Assembly (NCBI GenBank): GCA_025774865.1
Contig: JALGZO010000183.1
Coordinates: forward strand, 1-15,619
Source: a bacterium
Lineage (GTDB): Bacteria > ARS69
Direction: 5' to 3'
Length of the DNA stretch: 15,619 nt
Made by a program: the position numbers and the translations under genes
Part shown: positions 971-15,619 of the stretch, piece after piece
How the letters are laid out: every line of letters starts with the position of its first letter
How positions within the stretch are numbered: the stretch's first letter is position 1
The notes under the pieces: model-generated
Databases searched by the model: none
What the model saw: only the letters and a program-made list of their open reading frames with translations
Told to the model about the DNA's origin: nothing

Positions 971-1233
971 TGAAAGTCGACATCCGGCACGATACGGAAC
1001 GCCAACGTTTCTCGGCTCTCGTCGATGGTCGCGAGTCTTATCTCGACTACGGCGTCGTCGACGATGAGACGCTCGAGTACCGCCGCACCTACACGCCGCC
1101 GGACCTTCGGGGGCGCGGCATCGGCCGGGAGACCGTCCGGACCGCTCTCGAGTGGGCCTCCGTCGAAGGCAAGCGCGTGATCCCGAGCTGCTCGTTCGTC
1201 CAAGCGCACATCGATCGGGAGACCGCGCGGTGA
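967..1233 (+). CDS. Small GNAT-like N-acetyltransferase (YjdJ/GTLF3B type)
   Basis: This is an 88-residue protein. The segment [13 protein letters not shown] (about residues 41-53) matches the acetyl-CoA pyrophosphate-binding motif of the short GCN5-like family (COG2388/PF14542). The later [12 protein letters not shown] (71-82) matches its conserved Cys-containing C-terminal strand and helix. These compact proteins resemble only the core of a GNAT fold and their substrates are mostly unknown. Two adjacent ATGs (967 and 970) are possible starts. GGAGG at 953-957 sits 9 nt before 967, and GGAGG at 962-966 sits 3 nt before 970. The first gives an exact ATGA overlap with glyQ, and the 3' end overlaps glyS as GTGA. 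Its position between the two synthetase subunits is unusual and suggests co-expression, not necessarily a shared function. Confidence 0.85.
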
Positions 1234-3335
1234 AGCACCGGGACCTCGTCTACGAGATCGGCACCGAGGAAATCCCGGCGAGCTACCTGCCTCCGGCCGC
1301 GCGCCAGCTACGGGACGCCGCCGAGGCCTTCCTCCGAGAGAACCGACTGAAGGCTCGGAACGTCGAGACGCACGCGACGCCGCGAAGGCTCGTGCTATTC
1401 GTTCAAGGACTGCCGGTCGCGCAAGAGGATCGCACCGAGGAGGTCACCGGTCCGCCCTGGAAGGCCGCGTTCGACGCCGAGGGCAAGCCGACCCGGGCGG
1501 CGGAAGGATTCGCGCGCGGACGTGGGCTCTCGATCGACGATCTGCACGAAGTTCAGACGGAGAGGGGACCATACGTCGGCGCCACCGTCACGATCGAGGG
1601 CAGGCCGACGGGAGAGCTCCTGGCGTCCGCGCTGCCGGAGATCACGGGGCAGCTCGACTTCCCGAAGACCATGGTCTGGGGTCCCGCGCGCTTCGAGTTC
1701 GCCCGTCCGATTCGGTGGATCCTCGCGCTCTGGGACGGCGACATCATTCCGTTCGAGATCGAGGGCGTCGCGTCGGGGCGAACTACTTTCGGTCATCGCA
1801 TTCTGGCGAAGGGACCGTTTCGAGTGAAGAAAGCCTCCGACTACGAGGCTGCGCTCGCCAAGGGGCGAGTCGCGCTGCGCACCACCGATCGCGCGAGAAC
1901 GATCACCGAGCTTCTCGAAGAGACCGCGAAACAGGTGGGCGGCCACGTCGTCTCCGACCCCGGCCTCGTGGAGGAGGTGTCGTATCTCGTCGAATCCCCC
2001 TCCGTGTTCGCCAGCGACTTCGACGAGGAGTTTCTCGAACTCCCGGCCGCCGTCATCCGGACGGCGATGCGGGATCACCAACGTTATTTCGCGGTCGAAG
2101 GCGCGGACGGCGAGTTGCTCCCGCGCTTCCTGTGCGTCACGAACTCGTCGGCGGAGTCGGTCGAGCGGGTGAAGGACGGGAACCGCCGCGTGCTGCGCGC
2201 ACGCCTGGACGATGCCCGCTTCTACTGGAACGAGGATCTCAAGACGAAGCTCGTCGACAAGGTGCCGGAGCTCGGCGCGGTCGTCTGGCTCGACGGGTTC
2301 GGGTCGCTCGAAGACAAGACGAGGAGGATCGAGAAGCTGGCCGGTGGGCTCGCGGAGGTCGTGGCGCCGCAGGAGATGGACGCAGTAGCGCGGGCGGCGC
2401 TCCTCTCGAAGACGGACCTCGTGACCGAGATGATTCGCGACGGCAAGGAGTTCACGTCGCTCCAAGGCGTCATGGGTCGCGCGTACGCGCTCGAGAACGG
2501 CGAGCCGAAGGTGGTCGCGCTCGCGCTCGAAGAGCAGTACCGCCCGCGCTTCGCGGGCGACGGCCTGCCGTCGACCGGCGTCGGCGCGACGCTCGCGGTC
2601 GCCGATCGCCTCGACACGATGGTGGGAGTCTGGGCCGCCGGTCTCCGTCCGACCGGTTCGAAGGATCCCTTCGGTCTCCGCCGCGGCGCGCTCGGCGTCA
2701 TTCGAATTCTGCTCGACCGGGATCTCCGGCTCTCGGTGGGGGAGTTGGTGGAGCGCGCTGCCGACGGCTACGGTGATCGTCTCGAGGGTCGCGCGGAACT
2801 CGTGGAGGAGGTCAGCGAGTTCGTGCTCGACCGGCTCGCACAATACCTTTCCGACGAAGAGGGCATCGACGCCGACGTCGTCGCCGCCGTGGTCCCGTGG
2901 GCCGGCGGCAATCCAGTCGAGGCTCGGGCTCGCTGCGATGCGCTCGGGCGGTTGCGCTCCCAGAGCCGCGAGGACTTCGAAGCGCTCGCGGCGGGGTTCA
3001 AGCGCGCGAAGAACATCCTGAAGAAGGACCGTGCGGCGGGCCCGCCGTCCGAAAGTCTCCTCGTCGAGGCCGCGGAGCGCGACCTCTTCCATGCGTTCGC
3101 CTCGGTCGACCGGGACGTGACCGCGGCCGAGCGCGAGCAGCGGTACGGCGACGCCTTCGCCGGTCTCGCCCGGCTCCGCACTCCGATCGATACCTTCTTC
3201 GATTCGGTGATGGTCCTGACCGACGACGAGTCGTTGCGCGAGAACCGCCTTCGCCTGCTCGGTCGGATCGTGGATCGCGTGCAAGGACTCGCGGACCTGT
3301 CCCGCCTCGCGACCCGAGAAGAGACGAAGGTGTGA
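1230..3335 (+). CDS. glyS: Glycine--tRNA ligase, beta subunit
   Basis: This is the tRNA-binding beta subunit of the alpha2beta2 glycyl-tRNA synthetase. It has 701 residues, close to the usual 690 or so. The N-terminal EIGTEEIP (residues 9-16) is the family signature. Other conserved blocks are TPRRLVLFV, GPPWKAAF, KTMVWGPARFEFARPIRWIL, a HQRYF segment, NRRVLRARLDDARFYW, the HD-like region LLSKTDLVTEM (391-401), DRLDTMVG (459-466), GSKDPFGLRR (476-485), and the C-terminal DALR-like anticodon-binding part with FKRAKNILKK (590-599). The GTG start overlaps the upstream stop as GTGA and has GGGAG at 1217-1221, 8 nt upstream. A longer in-frame extension to 1152 would add residues unrelated to the family. 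The stop overlaps the GTG of the next gene in the same NTGA manner. Confidence 0.97.
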   Translation: MKHRDLVYEIGTEEIPASYLPPAARQLRDAAEAFLRENRLKARNVETHATPRRLVLFVQGLPVAQEDRTEEVTGPPWKAAFDAEGKPTRAAEGFARGRGLSIDDLHEVQTERGPYVGATVTIEGRPTGELLASALPEITGQLDFPKTMVWGPARFEFARPIRWILALWDGDIIPFEIEGVASGRTTFGHRILAKGPFRVKKASDYEAALAKGRVALRTTDRARTITELLEETAKQVGGHVVSDPGLVEEVSYLVESPSVFASDFDEEFLELPAAVIRTAMRDHQRYFAVEGADGELLPRFLCVTNSSAESVERVKDGNRRVLRARLDDARFYWNEDLKTKLVDKVPELGAVVWLDGFGSLEDKTRRIEKLAGGLAEVVAPQEMDAVARAALLSKTDLVTEMIRDGKEFTSLQGVMGRAYALENGEPKVVALALEEQYRPRFAGDGLPSTGVGATLAVADRLDTMVGVWAAGLRPTGSKDPFGLRRGALGVIRILLDRDLRLSVGELVERAADGYGDRLEGRAELVEEVSEFVLDRLAQYLSDEEGIDADVVAAVVPWAGGNPVEARARCDALGRLRSQSREDFEALAAGFKRAKNILKKDRAAGPPSESLLVEAAERDLFHAFASVDRDVTAAEREQRYGDAFAGLARLRTPIDTFFDSVMVLTDDESLRENRLRLLGRIVDRVQGLADLSRLATREETKV

Positions 3336-4681
3336 CGCCCAGGCTCGGCCTTGCCGTCACGGTCGTGAGTCTCGCCCTCGCCGGAGTCGTGGCCTGCGGC
3401 GGCGGCGACATCCGTCCCGACGACACCGGACGGGCATCGCGGTTCCTCATCATCGGCCTCGACGGCGGCGATTGGGATCGCGCGATTCCGCTGATGCGCC
3501 AGGGCAAGATGCCGCTGATGTCGCGTCTGGTCCGCACCGGGGTTCGGCGTACGTTACGCTCGCTCGAGCCGGAGCGGCTGTCGCCGACCATCTGGACGAC
3601 GGTCGCGACCGGCGTCCTTCCCGAGCGGCACGGCATTCACCATTTCGTGACCGACGACGGGGACGGGCTGCAGCCCGTCACGTCGAACCAGCGCCAGACG
3701 GCGGCGCTCTGGAACATCCTGTCGGCCCGCGATCGCACGGTCGGCGTCATCGGGTGGCTCGTGACCTGGCCGGCGGAGCCAGTGAACGGATACCTCGTGT
3801 CCTCTTACACACCGTATGTCTTCAACTGGGGTGCCGCGCGCCCCATCAAGGGCACACTCGTTGAAGGCGTTCCGAACCAGGTCTGGCCGCCCGACCTGCA
3901 GCCGACGCTCGAGCGCCTGAAGGTGCGACCGGAGGACGTGGCGATCGAGGAGCTCCGGGCTCGCTTCACCCATCGGGAGGTCCCGGAGTCTCCGGCCGAG
4001 GACGCGGCCGAGTCGTTGAAGGGAATGCGGTGGTCGTGGGCGACGGATCAGACGTACCGCCGCATCCACGAGCATCTCTCGCGCAACCCGCTCGGGGGCC
4101 GGCGACCGGAGGTGGAGCTCCTGTACCTCGCGTCGGTGGACGTGATCAGCCACCGCTTCTGGAAGTACATGGACCCGGACTCGTGGCGGCTGGGAGAGGT
4201 CTCGCCGATCGATGTGGCGCTCTTCGGTCAATCGGTCGAGAGCGCCTACCGATCCTTCGACGAAGTCATCGCGGGGACACTGGCGAGCGAGACGGACTCG
4301 GTTCGGGTACTGATCCTCTCCGACCACGGATTCCGAGACAACCGGGATCCGAAGCGGGCCACGAGCTCCGGCTGGCACCGTCCGGAGGGACTACTCCTGG
4401 CGGAAGGGCCGGGACTCCGGTCGGGTTCGGTTCTGCCGTCGGGGTCGGTGGTCGACGTTACTCCCACCGTCCTCTATGCTTTGGGGTTGCCGGTCGCCGA
4501 TGACATGGATGGGAGACCCGCCCTCGAGCTTTTCGACGACGATTTCCGGCGTGAGATGAAGCTCGATCGGATTCCCTCGTACGAACCGGAGGTCGTCCGT
4601 GCCCGCGTCGCCGCCCCCGTGGCGTCGCCGGTCGACGCGGAGATCCTGGCGCGGCTGAGATCGCTTGGCTATCTCGAGTAG
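3332..4681 (+). CDS. AlkP-superfamily phosphodiesterase lipoprotein 1
   Basis: This 449-residue exported enzyme belongs to the type I phosphodiesterase/nucleotide pyrophosphatase family (PF01663). The GTG start (GTGA overlap with glyS) gives an N-terminus with one Arg, a hydrophobic stretch and a lipobox ending VVAC (Cys22). This predicts signal peptidase II cleavage and membrane anchoring; +2 is Gly, so retention at the inner membrane is not indicated. The metal-site residues appear complete: D44 (GLDGGD), a Thr nucleophile at T90 (or T89) in WTTVATG, D270 and H274 (VDVISHRFW), D331-H332 (LSDHGF), and H349 (GWHRPEG). The C-terminal half has the family's DVTPTVLYALGL and DDMDGRP segments and ends RLRSLGYLE. 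The substrate is unknown; family chemistry is phosphodiester or phosphomonoester hydrolysis or transfer. It starts a block of envelope genes. Confidence 0.88.
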   Translation: MTPRLGLAVTVVSLALAGVVACGGGDIRPDDTGRASRFLIIGLDGGDWDRAIPLMRQGKMPLMSRLVRTGVRRTLRSLEPERLSPTIWTTVATGVLPERHGIHHFVTDDGDGLQPVTSNQRQTAALWNILSARDRTVGVIGWLVTWPAEPVNGYLVSSYTPYVFNWGAARPIKGTLVEGVPNQVWPPDLQPTLERLKVRPEDVAIEELRARFTHREVPESPAEDAAESLKGMRWSWATDQTYRRIHEHLSRNPLGGRRPEVELLYLASVDVISHRFWKYMDPDSWRLGEVSPIDVALFGQSVESAYRSFDEVIAGTLASETDSVRVLILSDHGFRDNRDPKRATSSGWHRPEGLLLAEGPGLRSGSVLPSGSVVDVTPTVLYALGLPVADDMDGRPALELFDDDFRREMKLDRIPSYEPEVVRARVAAPVASPVDAEILARLRSLGYLE

Positions 4682-6203
4682 AACGTCGCTCGTTCCGACG
4701 GGAGGTAATCAGATCACGATACCCGTTTTTGGGGGCGGTCTCCGGCCGTTTGCCACGCTCATTGCGCTGCTCTCGGTTGCGGCATGTGGTGGCGGCGGCA
4801 CCGGAGAGCAGGCGAGCCCGAGTGAAGCACCGGTTGAGGACCACACGCCGCCGGCGGAGCGGGGAACCTATCTGAATTTCGTGGCGCCGTCGGTGGTTCG
4901 CACCGGCGAGCCGCAGAAGGTCGAGCTGCGGGTCATCACGCAGGCGGGTCTTCCGCAATACGACTTCGAGGGCGCGTTCCGCATCGAGCCGTCTTCACCC
5001 CAGGTGGAGTTTCCGAAAAACGTCGTGATGGAGCCCACGAAGGAAGGGTCGCTCGTACTGCAGGGAGTCAAGTTCGGGGAGCGCGGCGTCCAGTTCCTCC
5101 GAGGGTCCGTGCCCGGAGACACCGTTCAACAGCTCGCGAACCCGATCGTCGTGATGGACGACCCCGAGTGGAACATCTACTGGGGTGACCTTAACGGGCA
5201 CTCGGATCTGAGCTCGGGAGTGCGCTCGCCAGGCCTGTACTACTGGTACGCGAAATCGGTCGCGCTGCTCGATTTCGTCGCGTTGACGGACAACGATCAC
5301 CTGGCAGATACCGACAAGGTCCTGGACGAAGAGACCTTCCGAGACCTGACCGAAGTCGTGACTGAGGCACACGAGCCGGGTCGGTTCGTCGCGCTGTCCG
5401 GCTTCGAGTGGTCGTCACGCGAGTACGGCAACCGGCTGGCCTTCCTCTCGGACACGCTGAGCGCGGTGCCGTCGGTCCGGTCCGGGGTCGACACGCCGGA
5501 GAAGCTCCGGGCGGCGCTTCCGACCGGTTCGGTGATCGCGCTGCCCCATCCGTCGGGATCCAAGGAGAACCCTCCCACGGACCCGGGAGCGGCAGGCCGC
5601 GGCTCCGAAGAGCTCGTCGAGATCTACTCGGCCGTCGGTCTCTTCGAGACCGGATCCACGCCGCGGGCCTCGACGCTCGAGACCCCGGGAGCGTTCGTGG
5701 TCGATCTCCTGCAAAAGGGGTTGCGTCCCGGGTTCATCGCGACATCCGACACTCGCTTGACGACGCCGGGGAATCCGCGCGGGTTCCCCTACGGTGACCT
5801 CCCGTACCCGGGTGGTCTGACGGCCGTCCTCGCGAAGGAGCTGACGCGCGAGGCCGTTCTCGAGGCGCTGCGAGCGCGTCGGTGCTACGCGACGACGGGA
5901 CTTCGATACCTCGTGGAGTTCACCGTCGACGGCAGTCAAATGGGCTCCGAGCTGAGCGTGCCGGTCGGACACCGGGCCGAAGTCTACGGGTCCCTCGGGT
6001 CGACCACGAACTGGATGCGAGTGGAAGTCGTGGGACCGAACGGCCCCGTGGCGACGCTCACCCCCGAGACCGACGCATCGGACGTCGTCGAGATCACTTA
6101 CACCACCGAGGCGATCACCGAGCCCACGTACCTCTACCTGCGTGGCGTCGACGAGCTCGGTGGGATGGCGTGGGCGAGTCCGATCACGTTGATTCCGGGA
6201 TAG
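4665..6203 (+). CDS. DUF3604/PHP-like lipoprotein
   Basis: From TTG 4665 this is 512 residues; from a rare ATC at 4713 it would be 496. A hydrophobic segment ends in SVAAC, with Cys41 from the TTG or Cys25 from the ATC. Gly-rich linker residues follow, as expected for a lipoprotein. About residues 65-170 look like a beta-rich, Ig-like N-terminal domain. The rest is a PHP-like fold of the DUF3604 type: GDLNGHS (174-180), LTDND (207-211), GFEWS (246-250), ALPHP (292-296), TSDTRL (360-365), then the typical GGLTAVLAKELTREAVLEAL and RRCYATTG. Three usual His ligands are replaced: N177, N210 and R364. H179, E248, H295 and D362 remain, so metal binding may be altered or lost. It sits between two AlkP genes, with the next gene 3 nt away. 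The reaction is unknown. TTG 4665 overlaps the upstream gene by 17 nt. Confidence 0.8.
   Translation: MAISSRTSLVPTGGNQITIPVFGGGLRPFATLIALLSVAACGGGGTGEQASPSEAPVEDHTPPAERGTYLNFVAPSVVRTGEPQKVELRVITQAGLPQYDFEGAFRIEPSSPQVEFPKNVVMEPTKEGSLVLQGVKFGERGVQFLRGSVPGDTVQQLANPIVVMDDPEWNIYWGDLNGHSDLSSGVRSPGLYYWYAKSVALLDFVALTDNDHLADTDKVLDEETFRDLTEVVTEAHEPGRFVALSGFEWSSREYGNRLAFLSDTLSAVPSVRSGVDTPEKLRAALPTGSVIALPHPSGSKENPPTDPGAAGRGSEELVEIYSAVGLFETGSTPRASTLETPGAFVVDLLQKGLRPGFIATSDTRLTTPGNPRGFPYGDLPYPGGLTAVLAKELTREAVLEALRARRCYATTGLRYLVEFTVDGSQMGSELSVPVGHRAEVYGSLGSTTNWMRVEVVGPNGPVATLTPETDASDVVEITYTTEAITEPTYLYLRGVDELGGMAWASPITLIPG
4701..4706 (+). promoter_or_regulatory. Strong Shine-Dalgarno bearing on the DUF3604 gene start
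   Basis: GGAGGT is the best SD match in this part of the window, yet no ATG, GTG or TTG lies at a normal distance behind it in the DUF3604 frame. The codons at suitable spacing are ATC (4713, 6 nt) and ACG (4716, 9 nt), with ATA (4719) farther away. Either a rare AUC or AUA start is used, a base is wrong in this copy, or the SD is fortuitous and the TTG at 4665 is the real start. Confidence 0.5.
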
Positions 6204-6206
6204 ATC

Positions 6207-7883
6207 ATGTCGCGGCGCGTGCTCGTGATCGCGCTCGATGGCGCGACCTTCGATCTGATCGGACCCTGGCTTCGCGACGGCAGCATGCCGAACCTCGAGC
6301 GTCTCCGTCGCGAGGGCGTCTCCGGCCAGCTCCGTTCCATCACACCGCCGGTGACCGCTCCCGCCTGGTGTTCGTTCATGACGGGGAAGAACGCAGGCAA
6401 GCACGGCGTCTTCGAGTTTCTCATGCGCGAGCCCGGGAGCTTCGAGGAAGTGCCCGTCACGTCGCAGCAACGGGTGGGGCGGACGCTCTGGCAGATTCTC
6501 GGCGATGCGGCACACAAGGTCCTGGTGGTCGGCGTTCCCGTCACGTACCCGCCCCAGCGGGTCAACGGCAACCTCATCGCGGATTTCCTCACGCCGATGG
6601 GCGATCGGCAGTTCACGTACCCGCCGAACCTCTTGGGCGAGGTGGAAGAAGCGACGGGTCCGTACGAGCTCTATCACGTGGAGGTCTATCGCAAGGGGAA
6701 GGGGCAGATCGTTCTCGACGAGCTCGATCGCGTCCTCGACGCGAATCGCCGCGCGAACCTATGGCTTCTCGAGAACAAACCCTGGGACTTCGCGATGCTG
6801 CACGTGTGGGGAACCGACCGGTACGGCCACGAGTTGTGGCACGTGCTCGACACCAGTCATCCGATGCACGACCAGGCGGAAGCGGCGATTCTTCGCGATC
6901 GATGCCTCGCGTACTGGCGTCGCGTGGACGAGACCGTGGGCGAGTGGATCGCCGCGGCCCCCGATGCAGCCACGGTGGTCCTCTCCGATCACGGCTTCGG
7001 TCCCATCCACCGGTTCCTCGTTCTGAACGTGTGGTTGTTGAACGTCGGGTTCCTGCGGCTGAAACGCAACGTCGCGACGTTCGTGAAGCGATCTCTCTTC
7101 GAGCTCGGCCTGTCGCCCGCCGCGGGCTACCGCTCCGCCATGAGGCTCGGTTTCGCCCGTATGCGACTGGCCACCGGGGTGGGGACGCGCTCGCGTCTCA
7201 TCCGCCGACTCAACCGGCTGTTCCTGTCTTTGGAGGACGTCGATTGGTCGCGGACGCGCGTCTATTCGAAGGGCAACTACGGACAGCTCTTCTTGAACCT
7301 GAAGGGTCGCGAGCCGCATGGCATCGTCGAGCCGGACGAAGCCGCGAACGTGGTCGAGGAGGTCGTCGCCGCGCTTCGACGCCTGGAAGATCCGGAGACC
7401 GGCGAGCCTCTCATCGGCGAGATCTGGACCCGGGACGATCTGTACTCGGGCCCGTTCGTGGGTCGCGCGCCGGATATCACTTTCCTACCGGCCGATATGC
7501 GAAACAAGGCGCTCGGCACCTTGGATTTCACGTCACACCGCTTCATCGAAGACGTCTATGGCAACTCGGGCGATCATCGCATGAACGGAATCTTCTTCAT
7601 GCGGGGGCAGGGAGTGAGGGAGGGGGTCGGCCTCGAAGGCGCGAATCTCGTCGACGTCGCGCCCACCGTGCTCCATTACCTCGGGGAAGCCATACCCTCC
7701 GACTTCGACGGACACGTTCTGACCGAGGCTTTCACGGACGCGGAGCTCGTGGCGAATCCGGTGCGGACCGTGGAGGTGTCCCCGACCGAGACGGGTGACG
7801 AATCGGGGCGCGAACGGGGGCTGACGAGCGAGGAGTCGAAAGAGATTCGCGAGCGGCTGAAAAGGATGGGCTACCTTGGGTGA
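6207..7883 (+). CDS. Cytoplasmic AlkP-superfamily enzyme 2 (COG3379-like)
   Basis: This 558-residue AlkP-superfamily protein has no signal peptide: the ATG start reads directly into the first core strand MSRRVLVIALDGA, so it is predicted to be cytosolic. Metal-site residues appear complete: D11, a nucleophile at S56 in AWCSFMTG (C55 precedes it), D204 and H208 (TDRYGHE), D261-H262 (LSDHGFG), and H457 (GDHRMNG). A basic, helix-rich insertion (about 270-345) leads into a block typical of COG3379 proteins, with VYSKGNYGQLFLNLKGREP and DPETGEPLI. The end has DVAPTVLHYLGEAIP, a DFDGHVL motif and the tail RLKRMGYLG. The start is 3 nt after the previous stop; the SD is weak (CGGGA). Family members are annotated as phosphodiesterases or nucleotide pyrophosphatases, but the substrate cannot be deduced. 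Unlike AlkP 1 and 3, it would act on a cytoplasmic compound or the inner face of the membrane. Confidence 0.87.
   Translation: MSRRVLVIALDGATFDLIGPWLRDGSMPNLERLRREGVSGQLRSITPPVTAPAWCSFMTGKNAGKHGVFEFLMREPGSFEEVPVTSQQRVGRTLWQILGDAAHKVLVVGVPVTYPPQRVNGNLIADFLTPMGDRQFTYPPNLLGEVEEATGPYELYHVEVYRKGKGQIVLDELDRVLDANRRANLWLLENKPWDFAMLHVWGTDRYGHELWHVLDTSHPMHDQAEAAILRDRCLAYWRRVDETVGEWIAAAPDAATVVLSDHGFGPIHRFLVLNVWLLNVGFLRLKRNVATFVKRSLFELGLSPAAGYRSAMRLGFARMRLATGVGTRSRLIRRLNRLFLSLEDVDWSRTRVYSKGNYGQLFLNLKGREPHGIVEPDEAANVVEEVVAALRRLEDPETGEPLIGEIWTRDDLYSGPFVGRAPDITFLPADMRNKALGTLDFTSHRFIEDVYGNSGDHRMNGIFFMRGQGVREGVGLEGANLVDVAPTVLHYLGEAIPSDFDGHVLTEAFTDAELVANPVRTVEVSPTETGDESGRERGLTSEESKEIRERLKRMGYLG
7862..7866 (+). 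promoter_or_regulatory. Ribosome binding site deciding the GT2 TTG start
   Basis: AAGGA lies 9 nt before TTG 7876, inside the end of the preceding gene. It favours TTG 7876 over the later in-frame GTGs (from 7918), which would begin inside the first core beta strand of the glycosyltransferase. Confidence 0.55.
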
Positions 7884-8598
7884 CGTTCCGGCTCCGGGCA
7901 TCGGGCGCAGGATCTCGGTGGTGCTACCTGCGTTCAACGAAGAAGAGAACATCGAGAAGCAGGTTCGGGACGTCGACGCCGTTCTTCGCGACTTCTGCTT
8001 CGACGAGTACGAGCTCCTGGTCGTGGACGACGGGAGCCGGGACCGGACCCGGGTCATCTGCGACGGTCTGGACATCGAGAATCTCCGCGTGCTCGGCCAC
8101 GACGTGAACCGGGGCTACGCGAAAGCTCTTCGAACGGGGTTCACCCAGGCCCGGATGTCGCTCGTCTTCTACACCGACGCCGACAACCAGTTCGACGTCC
8201 GGGAACTGAAGAATCTGCTCGCGGCCATCGATGACTACGACATCGTCTGCGGCTTCCGCATCTACCGCTACGATCCGTTCTCGCGGCTCGTTCTGTCGTG
8301 GGGATACAATCTGCTCGTGCGGATCCTCTTCCGGATCCGCGTCCGCGACGTCGACTGTGCGTTCAAACTGTTCCGGCGCGACGTGTTCGAGCGTATCCGG
8401 ATCGAGTCCGAGAAGTTCTTCGTGGACACGGAGATCCTGGCGAAGGCGTCGAAGCTCGGACTTCGCATGACGGAGGTCGGAGTTCGCCACCTGCCGCGAA
8501 CGGCCGGCGAGTCGACGGTGCGCGCCAGCCACGTGATCTCGACGCTCTCCGAGATCGCGCGCATGTGGAGGGACATCTACGTCCGGGGACGGATTTGA
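7876..8598 (+). CDS. GT2 family glycosyltransferase, polyprenyl-phosphate sugar synthase-like
   Basis: This 240-residue GT-A enzyme is of the dolichyl-phosphate mannose synthase type. The first strand ISVVLPAFNEEENI (13-26) is followed by VVDDGSRDR (D51-D52, nucleotide binding), NRGYAKALRTGF (78-89), the DXD motif DADNQF (101-106), and RDVDCAFKLFRRDVF, which matches the acceptor-side signature of DPM1-like enzymes. It should move a sugar from a nucleotide donor (for example GDP-Man or UDP-sugar) to a polyprenyl phosphate at the cytoplasmic face. There is no C-terminal pair of membrane helices like those in CsbB or GtrB, so it resembles soluble DPM1-type enzymes. TTG 7876 overlaps the AlkP 2 gene by 8 nt; its own stop overlaps the next TTG as TTGA. 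Co-location with two GT-C genes immediately downstream suggests it supplies their lipid-linked donor. Confidence 0.88.
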   Translation: MGDVPAPGIGRRISVVLPAFNEEENIEKQVRDVDAVLRDFCFDEYELLVVDDGSRDRTRVICDGLDIENLRVLGHDVNRGYAKALRTGFTQARMSLVFYTDADNQFDVRELKNLLAAIDDYDIVCGFRIYRYDPFSRLVLSWGYNLLVRILFRIRVRDVDCAFKLFRRDVFERIRIESEKFFVDTEILAKASKLGLRMTEVGVRHLPRTAGESTVRASHVISTLSEIARMWRDIYVRGRI

Positions 8599-10274
8599 GC
8601 CCGGCCCTCCGAAACGTACTGATTCTGTCCGGCCTGTTGAAGGTCGTCCTCGCCGTCACCTTCGCCGATCTCGAGCCCCGCTACGACGAAACCGAGTACC
8701 TCCGGTTCGGCCAGGAGGTCCGGGCCGGCGCACCGCCGGATCTCTGGCGGGCGCCGGGCTATCAGTGGTTCGTCGCGGCGGGTCTGACGGTCGCCGGGGG
8801 CCGCCCCGTGGGAGTTCGGCTGCTCCAGGTCCTGCTCTCGATGGCCGCCACGTTTCTCGTGTATCGAATCGGAAGGGAACGCTGGGGTGAGCGGGCGGGG
8901 CTCGCCGCGGCGACGTTCGTCGCTTTCTATCCGTCGCAGGTCGCGTTCTCCCACTATCTCTGGTCCGAAGTGCTCTACGGCTTCCTCGTGCTGTTCGCCT
9001 TCGAGCGCACTCTCGCGGCCGACCGTCGTGGCTCGCTGGCGGCGGCGGTGGGCGCCGGGGTGCTGTTCGGGACGGCGTCGCTCACGCGGTCGCTCGGCCT
9101 CGCGCTTCTGGCCGTGTCGCTCCTTTGGCTCGTCCACGGTCGGTGGCGCGAGCGAGGGCCGAAGCGTTCGCTGGCGCTCGCGGGAGCCGTGCTGGGCGTC
9201 GCGGCTCTGGTGGTCGTGCCCTGGTCGATTCGCGCCTCCGCTCTCGCGGGCCGGACCGTGATCGTGGATGTGAACGCCGCCTTCAATCTCTGGAGCGGTA
9301 ACAACGAGTACATTCCACCCGAGGCCCAGGGGATCTGGTCGGTCGGGCTTCCGCTGGGCAACGGGTCGAATCCGGGATTCGATCGTCAGTCGGTCGACGC
9401 CGTCTGGCGGGGGGAAGTCCGGCAGCGGATGGCCGCGGATGGAGTGCGCGAGCCCCTCGGTCCGGACGGAGCCGAGTGGTACCGCACCGAAGCGTCCCGG
9501 CACGTGCGCGAAGATCCGCTCGGGGTTCTGCAGCGCGCCCCGAAGAAGCTCGCTGCGCTCTGGGCGCCTGATTTCTTTCTGCCCCGGCATCTGGTGCGTG
9601 ATTGGTACGGCCCGACGCCTCCCACCCTCGCGGCGTTTCTCGTCGCCCTCACGTGGATCGCGGCCGCGATCCCGTTGCTGGCCGGGCCGGGTGCGCTCGC
9701 CGCGCTTCGACCGGGTCGATTCCGCTCGCTCGCGTGCGCGTGGATCATCGTCTACCTCGTAGTGCATGCCCTCGCCTACGGTCACTCGCGCATGCACCAG
9801 CCGCTCGTTCCCTTGCTCGTGCTCGCGGTGGCCGGTTTGCTGTTCGACGACACCGACGCTCCTCGCCACCGCCGCGTCGCCGGGAGGGCCGCACCCTGGG
9901 TGGGGCTGGCCGTCGCGAGCTGGATCTGGGTGTGGCCCGTGCTCGGCGGCTTGTATTTGATGCCGGGACCGAGCCACGTCGGCGTGGCACGACTGGTCGC
10001 GGTCGGCCGGCACCTGCCGCTGCCGGGGGCCGAGCGACTGACGTGGATGCTCGCCGCCGCCGAGGCATCACGGGGGGAAGGGGATCGAGCCCTGCGCGTC
10101 GTCGAGGGGAGTCGCCACGCGGAGGAATCCTGGTCGCTCTACCTGCGCGCCATGCTGCAGAAGGACGGGCGGAAGGCGGCCGACCTCGTCGAGCGGGCGC
10201 TTCGCGTCGACCCCGACCTTCGCCCCGCCCAGCGACTCGCGCGGGAACTCGCGCCGCCGGAGATGCATCGGTGA
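8595..10274 (+). CDS. GT39-type membrane glycosyltransferase with helical C-terminal tail
   Basis: This is a 559-residue integral membrane protein of the GT-C fold (ArnT/PMT-like, PF13231/PF02366 type). The first outer loop carries the acidic catalytic motif EPRYDETEY (27-35; D31 and E32 are candidates). RAPGYQW (52-58), PSQVAFSHYLWSEVLY and SGNNEY also fit the family, and late in the chain YGHSRMHQPLVPLLVLAVAG matches the conserved final-helix region. About ten hydrophobic segments occur. The last 90-100 residues are hydrophilic and helical, with a TPR-like unit (WSLYLRAMLQKDGRKAADLV, then ERALRVDP). It probably transfers a sugar from a polyprenyl-phosphate donor on the outer face of the membrane; the donor may come from the GT2 encoded just upstream. 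The TTG start is inferred from the TTGA overlap and GGGGA at 8585-8589. The stop overlaps the next GTG. Confidence 0.85.
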   Translation: MSPALRNVLILSGLLKVVLAVTFADLEPRYDETEYLRFGQEVRAGAPPDLWRAPGYQWFVAAGLTVAGGRPVGVRLLQVLLSMAATFLVYRIGRERWGERAGLAAATFVAFYPSQVAFSHYLWSEVLYGFLVLFAFERTLAADRRGSLAAAVGAGVLFGTASLTRSLGLALLAVSLLWLVHGRWRERGPKRSLALAGAVLGVAALVVVPWSIRASALAGRTVIVDVNAAFNLWSGNNEYIPPEAQGIWSVGLPLGNGSNPGFDRQSVDAVWRGEVRQRMAADGVREPLGPDGAEWYRTEASRHVREDPLGVLQRAPKKLAALWAPDFFLPRHLVRDWYGPTPPTLAAFLVALTWIAAAIPLLAGPGALAALRPGRFRSLACAWIIVYLVVHALAYGHSRMHQPLVPLLVLAVAGLLFDDTDAPRHRRVAGRAAPWVGLAVASWIWVWPVLGGLYLMPGPSHVGVARLVAVGRHLPLPGAERLTWMLAAAEASRGEGDRALRVVEGSRHAEESWSLYLRAMLQKDGRKAADLVERALRVDPDLRPAQRLARELAPPEMHR

Positions 10275-12694
10275 GAGCCCTGGCGCCCCTTGCGGTTTTG
10301 GCGGTCGCCGCCGCGTTCTTCGCGCCCGAGCTGTTCGGCGACCGCGTGGCCGCGACGGCGAACATGGCGCGTTGGCGTCCGTGGCTCGAGCACGCCACTC
10401 CGGAGCAGAGGATCGCTCCGTCGCACAACCCCGACTGCAATCTCTCGTACTACCCTCGCCGCTTCGTGCTGCACGAGACCTGGCGGGAGGGCTCGATCCC
10501 GTTCTGGAATCCGTACTCGTTCTGCGGAACGCCGTTTCTCGCCGACGTGCAGGCGGGCGTCCTCTATCCGCCGAATTGGGTTCTTCTGCCCTGGTCCCCG
10601 GCGGAACAACTCGGATGGTTTCTCTTCCTGCACGTCGCCTGGGGTGGTATCGGGGTGCTTCTTCTCGCGCGGCGAGCGGGGGCGCCCATCGGGATCGCCG
10701 CGCTCGCCGGCACGGCGTTCGGGCTGAACGGCTACTTCGTGAAGCACTTCGGACAGCTGACGTTCCTCGCGACGGCGGCGTGGCTACCGTGGGTGATTCT
10801 CGCCGGACTCGTTCTCGCGGATCGTCCGAGCGTCGGCCGCACGATGTGGCTCGCGCTGGCCGGTGCGCTCCTGTTTCTCGCGGGACAACCGCAGATCGCG
10901 TTGCTCGGCGCGTACGCGACGCTCGGCGTGGTGGCGACATCGCTTCTCGTGAGCCGGTCGGGAGAAGGGGAGGCGGCGAAATCACCGTTGCCGGTGGTGA
11001 TCGCGGTCGCGGGAGCGGGCGCCATCGCGTTGCTTCTCGTGTCCGCGCAGCTTCTCCCGACGCTGGATCTGGCGTCGCGGTCCGCCCGGGCGGTGCTTCC
11101 GTATTCCACCGTGATCTCCGGCGCGTTCCATCCGGTCGACGTGATCCGCTTCGTCGTGCCCGAGTTCTTCGGCACGCCCCTGACGGGTGACGAGTGGAGC
11201 CCGCTCTTCCCGCGCGGCGATGGTTTCTATATGAGGAACCAGCTCAACTCCGTATTCGCCGGCACTCCCGTCTTCTTGCTCGCACTGTGGGGGATGACCG
11301 GACCGCGGACGCGTCGAGCTGCCCTGCCGTTCACGGTGTTGTTCATCGTGTCGGTGCTCGTGGCGTTCGGCTCGCCGCTGGCGCGACTCGCGTACGAAAT
11401 GTTTCCCGGTTTCCGGTTCTCCCGGATCGATCGGGCGGGAAGCCTCGTGGTACTCGCGCAGCTCGTTCCGGCGGCGCTCGGCGCGGCCGACCTCACCCGG
11501 GCGCGCGGCGCCGGCCGACGGGTCTTCGGGAGCGGCGGCCTCGTGCTCGTCGTCGCGGGGGTCTGGCTCGTCGCCCGAGCGGGCACTTCCATGCCGGAAT
11601 GGCTCGGGCCGGAATGGCTCGGGGCCGGACCGCCGGCCGCTCTCGACGCCGAGAGCGCCGCGCGGCTTCTCCGGCGCACCCAGGTCGCGGGTCTGTTCGC
11701 GGCGGGGGGCGCCGCGGCATTCCTCCTGCCGGCGTCGCGCCTCGCGTCGGCCATCCCCCTGGCGCTCGCGATCGTTCAGCTCTTTGTCTTCGCGGCCCCG
11801 TACCGGGGGGATCGGTCGCCCGAAGAGTTCTTCGCCTCGACTCCGGGAATCGACGTTCTGGGACAGGCGGTCGCCGGGGGCGACGCAGGCGGCACCCGCT
11901 TCGTCCGTTTCGGGCGGGACCTGCCGGTGCGCCCGTACGCTCTTTCCAGTGTTCTCCCTCCGTCGACGAACGTGCCCTACCGGCTGCGCGATCTGCAGGG
12001 TTACAACGCGCTCACCGAGCGGCGCCTCGGCGACACCCTCGAGGACGTGCTCGGGGACGACGTCTTTTCGCACGGCATCTGGGCGGGCCGCCGAATCGTC
12101 GCGCCGACCCGGGCGGCGGCGCTCGAGCATCCGATGATCGACGCTCTGTCGGTCGGCGCCGCGGTCGGGGTGCATCCGATCGATGCGGCGGGCTGGACCG
12201 AGGTTCCGGCCCGCGGATTCCGCGTGTGGAAGAACGAGGAAGCCCTGCCCCGCGTGCGGCTCGCGACGGGCGGACAAGGGGTGTCGGAAGAGGACATGAA
12301 TGACATCGTCCGGCGGGGAACGTTCGATCCGCGGATCGATGTCTGGTGGGTCGGTGAGGGGAAGGTAGAGGGCCGCGTTTCCCCCGACGATGATGTGGAC
12401 GTTCTCGTGGACACGTGGAACGAGCTCGCCGTGCGCACGAGCACCGCGTCACGTGCGATGCTCGTCATTGCCGACTCGTACGGACCTGGCTGGCGCGCGA
12501 CGCTCGACGGGATCCCGGTCGAGGTTCTGGCGGTCTACGGCGTGGTGCGGGGGATGGCGATCCCGGCCGGCGTGCACGAGGTCGTCTTCCGCTACCGCCC
12601 GCCGGGCTTCGGCGTGGGAGTGGCTCTGTCGCTCGCGGGCTTGCTCCTCGCGGGAACCGGGATCGCGTTCAGCGTGGGGCGCGGAACCTTGTGA
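10271..12694 (+). CDS. YfhO family membrane protein (GT-C glycosyltransferase)
   Basis: This 807-residue protein matches the YfhO family (PF09586). The first outer loop has NPDCNLSYYPRRF (53-65, D55 candidate catalytic acid), then IPFWNPYSFCGTPFLADVQ (76-94) and LYPPNW (98-103), all strongly conserved in YfhO. At least ten hydrophobic segments follow. A large outer domain lies towards the C-terminus and contains the family's PRVRLATG and SYGPGWRATLDG motifs and an AIPAGVHEVVFRYRPP segment before a final membrane helix. In Bacillus and Listeria, YfhO transfers a sugar from an undecaprenyl-phosphate carrier made by a GT2 (CsbB) to lipoteichoic acid. Here the acceptor is unknown, and lipoteichoic acid is unlikely in a diderm. 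The GTG start makes a GTGA overlap with the previous gene, with GGAG 8 nt upstream. A 15-bp tandem duplication lies within the gene. Confidence 0.88.
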   Translation: MRALAPLAVLAVAAAFFAPELFGDRVAATANMARWRPWLEHATPEQRIAPSHNPDCNLSYYPRRFVLHETWREGSIPFWNPYSFCGTPFLADVQAGVLYPPNWVLLPWSPAEQLGWFLFLHVAWGGIGVLLLARRAGAPIGIAALAGTAFGLNGYFVKHFGQLTFLATAAWLPWVILAGLVLADRPSVGRTMWLALAGALLFLAGQPQIALLGAYATLGVVATSLLVSRSGEGEAAKSPLPVVIAVAGAGAIALLLVSAQLLPTLDLASRSARAVLPYSTVISGAFHPVDVIRFVVPEFFGTPLTGDEWSPLFPRGDGFYMRNQLNSVFAGTPVFLLALWGMTGPRTRRAALPFTVLFIVSVLVAFGSPLARLAYEMFPGFRFSRIDRAGSLVVLAQLVPAALGAADLTRARGAGRRVFGSGGLVLVVAGVWLVARAGTSMPEWLGPEWLGAGPPAALDAESAARLLRRTQVAGLFAAGGAAAFLLPASRLASAIPLALAIVQLFVFAAPYRGDRSPEEFFASTPGIDVLGQAVAGGDAGGTRFVRFGRDLPVRPYALSSVLPPSTNVPYRLRDLQGYNALTERRLGDTLEDVLGDDVFSHGIWAGRRIVAPTRAAALEHPMIDALSVGAAVGVHPIDAAGWTEVPARGFRVWKNEEALPRVRLATGGQGVSEEDMNDIVRRGTFDPRIDVWWVGEGKVEGRVSPDDDVDVLVDTWNELAVRTSTASRAMLVIADSYGPGWRATLDGIPVEVLAVYGVVRGMAIPAGVHEVVFRYRPPGFGVGVALSLAGLLLAGTGIAFSVGRGTL
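11594..11623 (+). repeat. 15-bp tandem duplication in the yfhO-like gene
   Basis: The 15-mer CCGGAATGGCTCGGG occurs twice head-to-tail without mismatch, and a partial third copy starts after it. It is in frame and encodes PEWLG-PEWLG in a loop between two hydrophobic segments. It is most simply a recent slippage duplication. Confidence 0.8.
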
Positions 12695-12717
12695 ACCCCA
12701 GCGGGGTCCCCTAGTAT
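12689..12717 (+). promoter_or_regulatory. Candidate sigma70-like promoter for AlkP 3
   Basis: TTGTGA (12689-12694, four of six matches to TTGACA) and TAGTAT (12712-12717, four of six to TATAAT) are separated by exactly 17 nt, in the only sizeable intergenic gap after glyQ. The -35 overlaps the stop codon of the yfhO-like gene. Transcription would start near 12724 and give a leader of about 40 nt. The matches are modest, so this is a candidate only. Confidence 0.42.
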
Positions 12718-12727
12718 CGTGAACCCC
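12691..12727. repeat. 9-bp direct repeat flanking the candidate promoter
   Basis: GTGAACCCC occurs at 12691-12699 and again at 12719-12727. Between them lies the palindrome GGGGTCCCC (12703-12711), whose left arm can also pair with the first CCCC to form a 5-bp hairpin (ACCCC-AGC-GGGGT). Copy 1 overlaps the candidate -35 and copy 2 the expected transcription start, as an operator pair might. No T-run follows the hairpin, so an intrinsic terminator is not supported. The remainder of the gap to 12765 contains only GGAG (12753-12756), the SD 9 nt before the next ATG. Confidence 0.45.
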
Positions 12728-12765
12728 TCGCCGTCGGGCCCGCGCCCGGACCGGAGCCGTCCGAA

Positions 12766-14304
12766 ATGCCCCGTCACTCATTCGGAGCGCACCCGCGACC
12801 GGCACGCTCGGCTGCCCTGGTTCTCGCCCTCTTCCTGGCCGCCGGATGCGCCGCCCCTCCGGAACGCGAGCCTTGGACCCCGGGGCCCGTGTTCATCCTC
12901 GGCTTTGACGGGCTCGCGCCCGATCTCGTCGACCGTTTCGAAGGCGAAGGCCTCCTGCCGAATTTTTCCGAGCTGCGACGGGAGGGTGCGGTCGGTCGAA
13001 TCCGAAGCACGCTGCCGATGATCTCGCCTCCTGCGTGGACGTCGGTCGTGACGGGTACGTCCCCCGGCGATCACGGGGTCTGGGGTTTCTGGCGGCCCGA
13101 CGGGAGCGGTTCCCTGGGAGCGTATGTCGATGCGACGCATCGTCTGGCCCCCGCGATTTGGGAGGACCTGACCGCGGCCGGTCGCCGTGTCGGAGTCGTG
13201 AACGTCCCGGTGTCGTGCCCCCCCGACTCCGTGAACGGTTTCATGGTCGCCGGCTTCCCCTATCCGCAGGGCGCCCCCCTGACGTGGCCGCCCGATCTGG
13301 AGAGCCGGATCGTGGAGGACGGGTACCTCCGCGACGCCTTCGGCGGGCCGCCGGCTCCGGGTCAGGAGGAAGCCTGGCTGGATCGGGCCTGGAAGATCGC
13401 GCGGGCGCGACGTCGCATCGGGCTCGGCCTGCTCCTCGATCGCGAGCCCGAGTTCTCCTTCATCGTGTTCACCACCCCGGACCGGATCCAGCATCATCTC
13501 TGGAAGTTCCACGACCCGAAGCATCCCCGTTACCGCCCGCCCGCTTCCGAGCGACTGAAGAGCGCAGTGCGTGACGCCTACGTCTGGTGCGACGACGTCC
13601 TCGGCGAAGTGATGGCGAAGCTTCCCGACGAAACGACGCTACTCGTTCTTTCGGATCACGGGTTCGGCCCGGCGTATCTCGGGATCTCGAAGGAGCGCCT
13701 GCTCGCGCAGATCGCTGACCCGGGGGGTGCGGCGAGCTCGCGAAACCTGTTCGGTGGTGATTTCTACCTCGAGAGGGATGATGACGAGAGTCGCGACCGT
13801 TTCGCGGCGGCGCTGGCGGCCGTCACCGACGAATCGGGAGCGTCGCTCGTACGCGCCGTCCACGACACTCGCGCGCAGAAGAGTCGTGGGTGGGGCGCCG
13901 GGCTCGGCCCCGAGATCGTCGCGGAGGAGGCCGAGGGATATCTGTTCGTACCGGGGGAGGAAGGCGACTCGCTCGTGACGTCGCTGTCGCCGACGGCGTT
14001 CTCGGGTTACCACCGCCGAGCGGGCTACTTCGCGGCGCGCGGGAGTCCGATCGAACCGGGCGCGGTACGCGACTGCGACCTGCGGGACGTACCGGCGATC
14101 GCGATGCACATTCTCGGCGAGGCGATTCCGCGTCGCTACCTGCACAACCTGCCTCGCGGTCTGTTCCCGCTCGAGTACTTCTTGAAACGGCCGATGTCGT
14201 TCGCCGGTGAGCCGCGTGACGGCCTGCGCAAACCGGGCGAGGCGGCTCCACGCGTAGATCCGGCGATCGAGGCACAGCTTCGCGCGATCGGCTATGTCCA
14301 GTAG
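12766..14304 (+). CDS. AlkP-superfamily phosphodiesterase lipoprotein 3
   Basis: This is a 512-residue AlkP-superfamily protein. The N-terminus has several Arg residues, a hydrophobic core and the lipobox LAAGC (Cys28), so it should be an exported lipoprotein; +2 is Ala. Metal-site residues are all visible: D48 (GFDGLAP), nucleophile T92 or S93 in PPAWTSVVTG, D239 and H243 (TPDRIQHHLW), D297-H298 (LSDHGFGP), and H416 (SGYHRRAGYF). The protein lacks the DMDG/DFDG motif near the C-terminus that AlkP 1 and 2 have; that place reads AIPRRYLHNLPRGLFPLEYF. It ends RAIGYVQ, like the other two paralogs. The ATG is preceded by GGAG 9 nt upstream and a possible promoter. It may begin a second transcription unit with the overlapping GT39-type gene. 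The substrate is unknown; a periplasmic phospho-substituent transferase or hydrolase is the general expectation. Confidence 0.88.
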   Translation: MPRHSFGAHPRPARSAALVLALFLAAGCAAPPEREPWTPGPVFILGFDGLAPDLVDRFEGEGLLPNFSELRREGAVGRIRSTLPMISPPAWTSVVTGTSPGDHGVWGFWRPDGSGSLGAYVDATHRLAPAIWEDLTAAGRRVGVVNVPVSCPPDSVNGFMVAGFPYPQGAPLTWPPDLESRIVEDGYLRDAFGGPPAPGQEEAWLDRAWKIARARRRIGLGLLLDREPEFSFIVFTTPDRIQHHLWKFHDPKHPRYRPPASERLKSAVRDAYVWCDDVLGEVMAKLPDETTLLVLSDHGFGPAYLGISKERLLAQIADPGGAASSRNLFGGDFYLERDDDESRDRFAAALAAVTDESGASLVRAVHDTRAQKSRGWGAGLGPEIVAEEAEGYLFVPGEEGDSLVTSLSPTAFSGYHRRAGYFAARGSPIEPGAVRDCDLRDVPAIAMHILGEAIPRRYLHNLPRGLFPLEYFLKRPMSFAGEPRDGLRKPGEAAPRVDPAIEAQLRAIGYVQ

Positions 14305-15619
14305 GCCGGAGCCCTGGGGCCCGGCCGAGCGGAGGTTCGTCGCCGCGGCAGTTCTGGTCGCGATCGTTTTCCGGGTCCTCCACTGGCAGAGCTTCGCCGC
14401 CTACCCCTGGTTCGACTTCCTCGGCCTCGACGCGAAGTTCTACGACGATTGGGCGCAACGCATTCTGCGCGAGGGCGTGCAGGCCGATCAGCCCTACTTC
14501 ATGGGTCCGCTCTATCCTCACTTGCTCGCGGCCGTATACGCGGTGGCCGGTCGCAGCTTCGACGCGATCCGGGGCATTCAGGTCGGCCTCTCGGGGGCGA
14601 CCGTGGTGCTCGTTCATCTTCTGGCCCGCCGATATGGCGGGCCGAGTCTCGCCATGCTGTCGTCGGGGATGGCGGCCGTATACGGGCCGTTCGTGTATTA
14701 CTCCGTCTCACTCCTCTATCCCACACTCACCGTGCTTCTCGCGACCGTGTTGTTGCTCTTGCTGCACGACGCGGCCGCGCGCCGATCACACCTGCTCGCA
14801 TTTGCCGCGGGCGCGACTCTCGGCACCTTCGCCCTGGGCCGCGGGAACATCTTGCCATTTGCGCCGATCGCGTTCCTCTGGCTGGTCACCGCCTGGGGCC
14901 ATCCGTTCGACCCCAAGCTCTCCCGATGGCGGCGCGGTCTTCCGGGTGGACTCGCCCTGACGTGCGGGGCCGTCCTCTTCGTGCTGCCGGCGACGATTCA
15001 CAACCTCCGCACCGGCGATCCGACTCTTCTCACGACGAACGCCGGTCTCAACTTCTACATCGGCAACGGTCCGATGGCGACCGGCGCTCACGAAACTCCG
15101 GTGCTATTCCTCCCGCGCGACGACGGCACGGTGCAGAAGATCGTGGCCGACCTGCAAAAGGACGTGGAGTGTCGAACCGAGGCTGAATTCGCGGTGGGTC
15201 GCTCGCTCTCGTACACGGAGGTCTCGTCGTTCTGGTTCGACCAGACGCTCGAGTTCATCGTGGAGAATCCGGGCGCGTTCGTCTCGAAGCTCGTCATGAA
15301 GGCCGTTCACTTCTGGAGCACGTACGAAATTCCGCAGATCGAGCACTTCGGATACTTGCGTCGATACTCCTGGCCGTTGAGCGGCCCGGTCCTCTCGTTC
15401 GGCCTCGTGGGACCGCTCGCGATCGTCGGTATGGCACTCGGCCTGCGGTCGGCGCGACGCTGGGCGTTGCTCTATCTCTTCGTCCTGGTCTACTCGACGT
15501 CGATTGTCCTGTTCTTCGTGCTCGCTCGCTACCGTCTGCCGATCGTTCCCGCTCTCGTCCCTTTCGCCGCGTACGCGGTGCTCACGATCGTGGACGCGTT
15601 CCGGCGTCGGCGCTGGGCG
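14294..15619 (+). CDS. GT39-type membrane glycosyltransferase (partial, runs off window)
   Basis: The reading frame opens at ATG 14294, overlaps the AlkP 3 stop by 11 nt, and continues without a stop to the last base, giving 442 residues so far. After a hydrophilic N-terminus and a first membrane helix (about 14-30), the outer loop carries LGLDAKFYDDWAQRI (43-57), with D51-D52 as candidate catalytic acids. MGPLYPHLLAAVYAV then fits the GT39/ArnT-like pattern. Later NAGLNFYIGN and VLARYRLPIVPALVPFAAYAV match conserved GT-C regions near the final helices. It should transfer a sugar from a polyprenyl-phosphate donor outside the cytoplasmic membrane. No strong SD is seen; translational coupling to AlkP 3 is likely. 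The missing 3' end is beyond the window, so a C-terminal tail like that of the first GT39-type protein cannot be judged. Confidence 0.85.
   Translation, partial: MSSRPEPWGPAERRFVAAAVLVAIVFRVLHWQSFAAYPWFDFLGLDAKFYDDWAQRILREGVQADQPYFMGPLYPHLLAAVYAVAGRSFDAIRGIQVGLSGATVVLVHLLARRYGGPSLAMLSSGMAAVYGPFVYYSVSLLYPTLTVLLATVLLLLLHDAAARRSHLLAFAAGATLGTFALGRGNILPFAPIAFLWLVTAWGHPFDPKLSRWRRGLPGGLALTCGAVLFVLPATIHNLRTGDPTLLTTNAGLNFYIGNGPMATGAHETPVLFLPRDDGTVQKIVADLQKDVECRTEAEFAVGRSLSYTEVSSFWFDQTLEFIVENPGAFVSKLVMKAVHFWSTYEIPQIEHFGYLRRYSWPLSGPVLSFGLVGPLAIVGMALGLRSARRWALLYLFVLVYSTSIVLFFVLARYRLPIVPALVPFAAYAVLTIVDAFRRRRWA

Follow-up and report, generated by a model that had tools for sequence, protein, structure and literature searches.

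What do eight contiguous genes do that combine three enzymes of the alkaline phosphatase (AlkP) superfamily with a family 2 glycosyltransferase (GT2), three GT-C membrane proteins and a DUF3604-like lipoprotein? The question is raised by contig JALGZO010000183.1 of assembly GCA_025774865.1, a draft genome (4.7 Mb in 785 contigs, 92.65% complete, 8.3% contamination) of the GTDB lineage Bacteria; ARS69. The entire contig, 15,619 nucleotides long, is the window analysed here. Downstream of glyQ-glyS, the genes for AlkP1, a DUF3604/CehA-like lipoprotein, AlkP2, GT2, GTC1, YfhO, AlkP3 and GTC2 follow each other in this order, nearly gapless and, like all features given below, on the plus strand. 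An earlier note, made from the sequence alone, had read this block as a possible extracytoplasmic module assembling a surface glycan or lipid, with a division of labour resembling that of glycosylphosphatidylinositol (GPI) synthesis. Pfam bears out the families that the note had named for all eight genes, i.e. three PF01663 enzymes, a DPM1-like GT2, two GT39-type proteins, YfhO and the DUF3604-like lipoprotein. In several poorly known bacterial lineages, this gene set probably serves to make a sugar-loaded lipid in the cell interior with which the surface is then decorated, and AlkP2, an unstudied member of its conserved core, is predicted to be a cytosolic phosphodiesterase.

Linkage of AlkP2, GT2 and their partners

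Gene linkage gives the module good support. The sample of the window's phylum consists of five genomes including the window's own, all of one family; within the limits of their contigs, the four others all show the gene order of the block. In G003, which is 100% complete, the whole set of ten genes, glyQ through GTC2, is arranged as in the window, strand included, and the AlkP1 to GTC2 block of G001 is near-identical to that of the window. G002 has the block as in the window, but AlkP1 is not in place, and in G004 DUF3604-AlkP2-GT2-GTC1 is found on a 3-kb contig. The presence of genes at loci was scored by tblastn because simple longest-ORF (open reading frame) calling mislabelled GC-rich loci.

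Further afield, in Blastocatellia, an Eisenbacteria-labelled lineage and the families of genomes G446 and G583, the module is found as a reduced core of AlkP2-GT2, a PF03706 flippase-like protein and GT-C/YfhO proteins. A scan of named genomes gave AlkP2 orthologs of 48-52% identity in Blastocatellia, another Acidobacteria metagenome-assembled genome (MAG), an Eisenbacteria/Gemmatimonadetes-labelled lineage and one Chloroflexi-labelled MAG. The order is AlkP2-GT2-PF03706 in Blastocatellia, at loci without glyQS; glyQ-glyS-GT2-YfhO-YfhO-AlkP2-PMT_2-PF03706-PMT_2/TPR in the Eisenbacteria-labelled lineage; and glyQ-glyS-AlkP2-GT2, then YfhO, PMT_2 and PF03706 genes in a row, in the two further families (G446, G583). 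Beyond the phylum, GT2 orthologs share 58-63% identity with the window GT2; they are present in 9 of the 12 outside-phylum genomes found by AlkP2, each time at the AlkP2 locus.

Linkage was also scored in two samples picked independently of AlkP2, one of 297 Acidobacteriota genomes and one of 386 domain-wide genomes. Among the Acidobacteriota, GT2 is present in six genomes, all of which belong to the eight that have AlkP2, and in all six the two genes are within ~3 kb of each other. All ten domain-wide genomes with a GT2 match of at least 387 bits have AlkP2 on the same strand at a distance of 5 kb or less; the weaker GT2 of G672 (308 bits) has no AlkP2 within 5 kb. GT2 is found in 7/7 genomes of the Eisenbacteria-labelled phylum. 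The hypergeometric probabilities of this co-occurrence are 9e-11 and 3e-11 for the two samples, and ~1e-6 once relatives are collapsed or the profile-building genomes are dropped. It should be noted that the GT2 profile itself was built from AlkP2-linked copies, and that, among the genomes from other families in the domain-wide sample, the matches of G410, G548 and G676 share coordinates with G367, G065 and G064, so that these are probably the same genomes. Rare co-occurrence in relatives, the outcome that the earlier note had regarded as fatal to a module, is not what the conserved-neighbourhood search revealed: the genes co-occur strongly.

Predicted properties of AlkP2 and the glycosyltransferases

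From its fold and catalytic set, AlkP2 (6207..7883) is predicted to be a phosphodiesterase of the nucleotide pyrophosphatase/phosphodiesterase (NPP) type. It matches PF01663 with 139.3 bits (Pfam cut-off 23), and alignment reveals the two-metal site and Thr/Ser nucleophile of NPP-type AlkP enzymes, with residues D11, T50, D204, H208, D261, H262 and H457 invariant in 16/16 aligned sequences. Structure comparison with VIA-align of its AlphaFold2 model (predicted local distance difference test score, pLDDT, 87.7) gave as best matches the NPP phosphodiesterases ENPP1, ENPP3 and Xac NPP (Z ~27, root-mean-square deviation 3.4-3.5 over ~350-360 residues, 16-21% identity). ENPP7 and ENPP6, whose substrates are choline phospho-compounds, are close behind, and an ENPP3 complex with UDP-GlcNAc is also among the matches. 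PIG-N/PIG-O and EptA, with which the earlier note had proposed to compare the AlkPs, are not among the 50 matches listed, which does not exclude them; the fold is closest to the soluble NPP phosphodiesterases (ENPP1, Z 27), and this speaks against the GPI-like reading. AlkP2 shares its predicted fold and its metal/nucleophile set with NPP/ENPP phosphodiesterases and phosphonoacetate hydrolase, but it differs from them, at 16-21% identity in the structural alignments, in having no signal peptide, in conserved blocks of its own and in a cationic insert of ~63 residues. PDB sequence matches to nucleotide-type relatives span only its N-terminal region (~residues 3-108), which leaves out conserved blocks such as YSKGNYGQ.

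The AlkP2 sequence contains neither a signal peptide nor a predicted membrane helix (0); its first catalytic beta-strand comprises residues 4-10, and orthologs share the same start. AlkP2 should therefore be cytosolic, separated by the membrane from the exported AlkP1 and AlkP3. Because it has no export signal, the block is not wholly extracytoplasmic, a description that suits AlkP1, AlkP3 and the DUF3604-like lipoprotein. The insert (residues 283-345; 7053..7241), partly amphipathic, has a net charge of +11 by charge count, versus -21 for the remainder of the window protein, and all close orthologs likewise have a net positive insert and a negative remainder. This charge was reached by 12/1000 shuffles of the window protein but by 446/1000 for the protein of L085, and we take the insert as a hint of a possible membrane-surface element.

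In the AlkP2 tree, the GT2-linked copies fall in two clades, and the sister of the Acidobacteria GT2-linked clade holds AlkP2 copies that adjoin GT9 or GT4/Wzx; AlkP2 therefore belongs to sugar-assembly loci generally, rather than to one GT2. At the Acidobacteria loci L156, L157, L159, L158 and L089, the sister-clade AlkP2 adjoins GT9, GT4/Wzx or a membrane-anchored sulfatase-like protein. A C-terminal tail resembling LxxxGY[LV] is seen on AlkP1-3 (4640-4681, 7845-7883, 14265-14304) and on 40/42 AlkP2-like proteins, cytosolic and lipoprotein forms alike.

GT2 (7876..8598), also a conserved core gene, has a start that overlaps the AlkP2 stop codon, and a 4-base AlkP2/GT2 overlap is found in G446 as well. 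It matches PF00535 with 94.2 bits and has a DAD motif, and its nearest solved proteins are ArnC and dolichol-phosphate-mannose synthase (DPMS), which make polyprenyl-phosphate-sugars; C-terminal membrane helices were not found in it. At the sequence level, GT2 qualifies as the polyprenyl-phosphate-sugar synthase of a transmembrane glycosylation system. The GT-C transferases of such a system would be supplied by two PMT_2 proteins, GTC1 (8586..10274, start approximate) and GTC2 (14294..15619), and by YfhO (10250..12694, start approximate), all of which exceed the Pfam cut-offs: 49.8 and 32.0 bits for GTC1 and GTC2 with PF13231 (cut-off 26.1), and 38.0 bits for YfhO with PF09586 (cut-off 28.5), in a match spanning only part of the profile. 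The three GT-C transferases of the earlier note are thus retained, with the correction that the contig stops within the last one, GTC2, whose complete orthologs are 812-813 amino acids long and have a TPR-like C-terminal part, which Pfam identifies as TPR in other lineages. GTC1 orthologs in the window's phylum are 47-66% identical, and YfhO proteins 56-61% within the phylum and 28-37% in other lineages. At the Eisenbacteria-labelled loci L123, L124 and L125, a second GT2 of 44-46% identity adjoins a YfhO gene, apparently as a paralogous GT2/YfhO pair.

The note had also stated that the window has no flippase gene. There is indeed no PF03706 gene in the window; in other lineages, however, such a gene is clustered with the module, and its products exceed the TIGR00374 'flippase-like' cut-off. 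The genomes of the window's phylum each have 6-8 PF03706 matches elsewhere, and a flippase of the GtrA/GtcA type (PF04138) was found in 0/5 of them, one being 100% complete. The point that the note had raised about a flippase is thereby met only partly.

A possible pathway and its alternatives

The core of the block contains what a polyprenyl-phosphate-sugar/flippase/GT-C pathway needs and its genes are strongly linked, in agreement with the earlier idea of a surface glycan or lipid assembly module. GT2 would move a sugar from a nucleotide donor to a polyprenyl-phosphate carrier at the inner membrane face, a PF03706-type flippase-like protein, which other lineages have in the operon and which the window's genome would need to encode outside the block, would turn the polyprenyl-phosphate-sugar over, and the GT-C proteins (YfhO, PMT_2 and PMT_2-TPR) would pass the sugar on to an acceptor at the cell surface. 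At the inner membrane face, AlkP2 may act as a dedicated NPP-type phosphodiesterase, dependent on metal, that most likely cleaves the phosphodiester of the polyprenyl-phosphate-sugar or of a closely related lipid-linked intermediate, thereby releasing the carrier or editing what is flipped. Polyprenyl-phosphate-sugars are phosphodiesters, the class of bond that NPP enzymes cleave. AlkP1, AlkP3 and the DUF3604-like lipoprotein would be lineage-specific outside parts with the product, or phosphate groups on it, as their target. The direction of the pathway, the flippase role of PF03706 proteins and the substrates and roles of all AlkPs are what we infer, and we give the model as a whole, i.e. 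this pathway together with a cytosolic AlkP2 phosphodiesterase and outside AlkPs, an even chance of being right. More specifically, and only tentatively, we propose a new class of surface-glycosylation operon with a built-in cytosolic phosphodiesterase of the AlkP fold that cleaves polyprenyl-phosphate-linked sugars and so sets or proof-reads the amount flipped.

Several points weigh against the model as a whole. The solved NPP relatives of AlkP2 act mostly on nucleotides. AlkP2 is present without GT2 in several genomes, and its sister clade beside GT9 or GT4/Wzx implies that AlkP2 has no exclusive link to a single GT2. Nor does the cationic insert prove that AlkP2 binds membranes, its charge being only weakly above shuffles in some orthologs. 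The PF03706 genes of the window's phylum have identities of ~23-31% to the clustered flippase-like proteins, and none of them is a clear ortholog. Finally, the named genomes of this phylum were assembled from metagenomes, with a contamination of 8.3% in that of the window.

The main rival for the role of AlkP2, which leaves the module as it is, makes AlkP2 a pyrophosphatase of nucleotide sugars or nucleotides that controls the donor pool for GT2, and for GT9/GT4 in the sister clades. It would explain why the AlkP2 fold is closest to nucleotide-cleaving NPPs, including the ENPP3 complex with UDP-GlcNAc, and why sister-clade AlkP2s adjoin GT9 and GT4, enzymes that work with nucleotide sugars; such a reaction would be wasteful unless regulated, however, and with the nucleotide-type PDB matches limited to ~residues 3-108 and the YSKGNYGQ-like blocks outside them we judge this explanation rather unlikely. 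We are more doubtful about a cytosolic variant of the GPI scheme, in which AlkP2, ahead of flipping, adds to the lipid-linked sugar, or trims from it, a phospho-substituent (phosphoethanolamine or phosphoglycerol). PF01663 includes transferases of the PIG-N/PIG-O type, a Thr nucleophile would supply the covalent intermediate for such chemistry, and the cationic insert could bring AlkP2 to phospholipid, but the known transferases act outside and have membrane domains, of which AlkP2 has none, and its fold matches are hydrolases.

The earlier model in full makes AlkP1 and AlkP3 extracytoplasmic ethanolamine-phosphate transferases acting on a GPI-like glycolipid. Both proteins are PF01663 members with catalytic motifs and lipoprotein N-termini, and the catalytic domain of PIG-N/PIG-O is itself of the PF01663 type. 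A multi-spanning membrane domain like that of PIG-N/PIG-O is, however, present in the sequence of none of AlkP1, AlkP2 and AlkP3, AlkP2 would lie on the opposite membrane side, the nearest solved sequences of AlkP3 are phosphonoacetate hydrolase and NPP3, and the two exported AlkPs are outside the cross-lineage core, so that we consider this model very unlikely. Even less can be said for a chance pile-up of abundant AlkP genes beside glyQS with no functional module. With ~45-50 PF01663 genes in the window's genome, some in tandem groups, such an accident is conceivable; yet the partners GT2, YfhO, PF03706 and PMT_2 turn up beside AlkP2 in several lineages, also at the Blastocatellia loci that lack glyQS, and in samples not chosen by AlkP2, which makes this explanation highly improbable.

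The proposed pathway with AlkP2 as a carrier-lipid phosphodiesterase can be compared with described systems. PMT_2 and YfhO are among the GT-C families of multi-component transmembrane glycosylation (PMC8035078). Like CsbB-GtcA-YfhO (PMC8035078, PMC7389260), the module combines a gene resembling GT-A polyprenyl-phosphate glycosyltransferases with YfhO/PMT_2 GT-C genes and, in several lineages, a flippase-like membrane protein in the operon. It differs in that no GtrA-type flippase was found in the window's phylum, other lineages having the PF03706 type, and in a GT2 without membrane helices, an additional cytosolic AlkP and a YfhO match to part of the profile. GT2 also matches the model of streptococcal PgfS, and the YfhO proteins those of PgfM1/PgfM2, but all scores are far under the curated cut-offs; PgfS-PgfM1-PgfM2 is not known to have an AlkP partner. 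The role that we propose for AlkP2 has a precedent in UshA of Bacillus, a cytosolic enzyme proposed to hydrolyse undecaprenyl phosphate (UndP)-sugars, releasing UndP (PMC11898649). The likeness is one of function only, since UshA resembles alpha/beta hydrolases and UpsH, also an UndP-releasing enzyme of Bacillus, metallophosphoesterases (PMC11898649), whereas AlkP2 has the AlkP/NPP fold and its gene lies inside a glycosylation operon. The phosphodiesterase EboF is part of another operon (PMC5133447). In our search of open-licence papers, we found no description of an AlkP/COG3379/PF01663 enzyme in such a glycosyltransferase cluster.

Transmembrane glycosylation systems described to date are made up of three components, namely a glycosyltransferase for the carrier lipid, a flippase and a GT-C enzyme, and in none of those that our search of open-licence papers covered did we find a control or editing step by a cytosolic phosphodiesterase. 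A recurring operon with such an enzyme in poorly cultured lineages would indicate that lipid-linked sugars are controlled or edited there. If true, this would be a carrier-lipid control step with a new enzyme fold, conserved over several deep bacterial lineages; it would assign a function to a so far unassigned branch of the AlkP superfamily and mark PF03706 proteins as flippase candidates in these lineages.

Exported proteins and neighbouring genes

AlkP1, AlkP3 and the DUF3604-like protein, which are not in the core conserved across lineages, look like exported lipoproteins, as each opens with a signal peptide and a lipobox-like cysteine. AlkP1 (3332..4681; ..GVVAC, Ser84 at the nucleophile position) matches PF01663 with 77.6 bits and has orthologs of 63-65% identity in G003 and G001. 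AlkP3 (12766..14304; ..LAAGC, Ser87 at the nucleophile position) matches the same family with 122.9 bits (cut-off 23 for both) and has orthologs of 55-63% identity in G001-G003; its structure model was discarded (pLDDT 41.8, only three usable orthologs). The DUF3604/CehA-like lipoprotein (4701..6203, start codon uncertain between 4665 and 4720) matches PF12228 with 44.9 bits (cut-off 20.4) and scores 74.9 with the NCBIfam CehA/McbA model, slightly under the cut-off of 80. PHP-like hydrolases usually have HxH at the first metal motif; here this motif is degenerate (NGH in the window, L078 and L082; SGV in G003), and the protein may therefore be inactive.

The AlkP superfamily is strongly expanded in the window's phylum: PF01663 has 63 matches, corresponding to roughly 45-50 genes, across the window's genome, where AlkP genes are thus common. 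Many of these genes are in long frames, some as tandem groups. Downstream of GTC2 in G003 and G001 (L065, L069), there are several large lipoprotein-like or exported proteins, and G001 has a further AlkP there with 35% identity to AlkP1.

On the left, the common neighbour of the block is glyQ (89..970), encoding the glycyl-tRNA synthetase alpha subunit, followed by glyS (1230..3335) for the beta subunit. In the window's phylum, in G446 and G583 and in the Eisenbacteria-labelled lineage, homologs of these two genes adjoin the block, with identities of 63-82% and 41-67%, respectively. Between glyQ and glyS (970-1233), a small ORF resembles, by eye, a short GNAT-type acetyltransferase.

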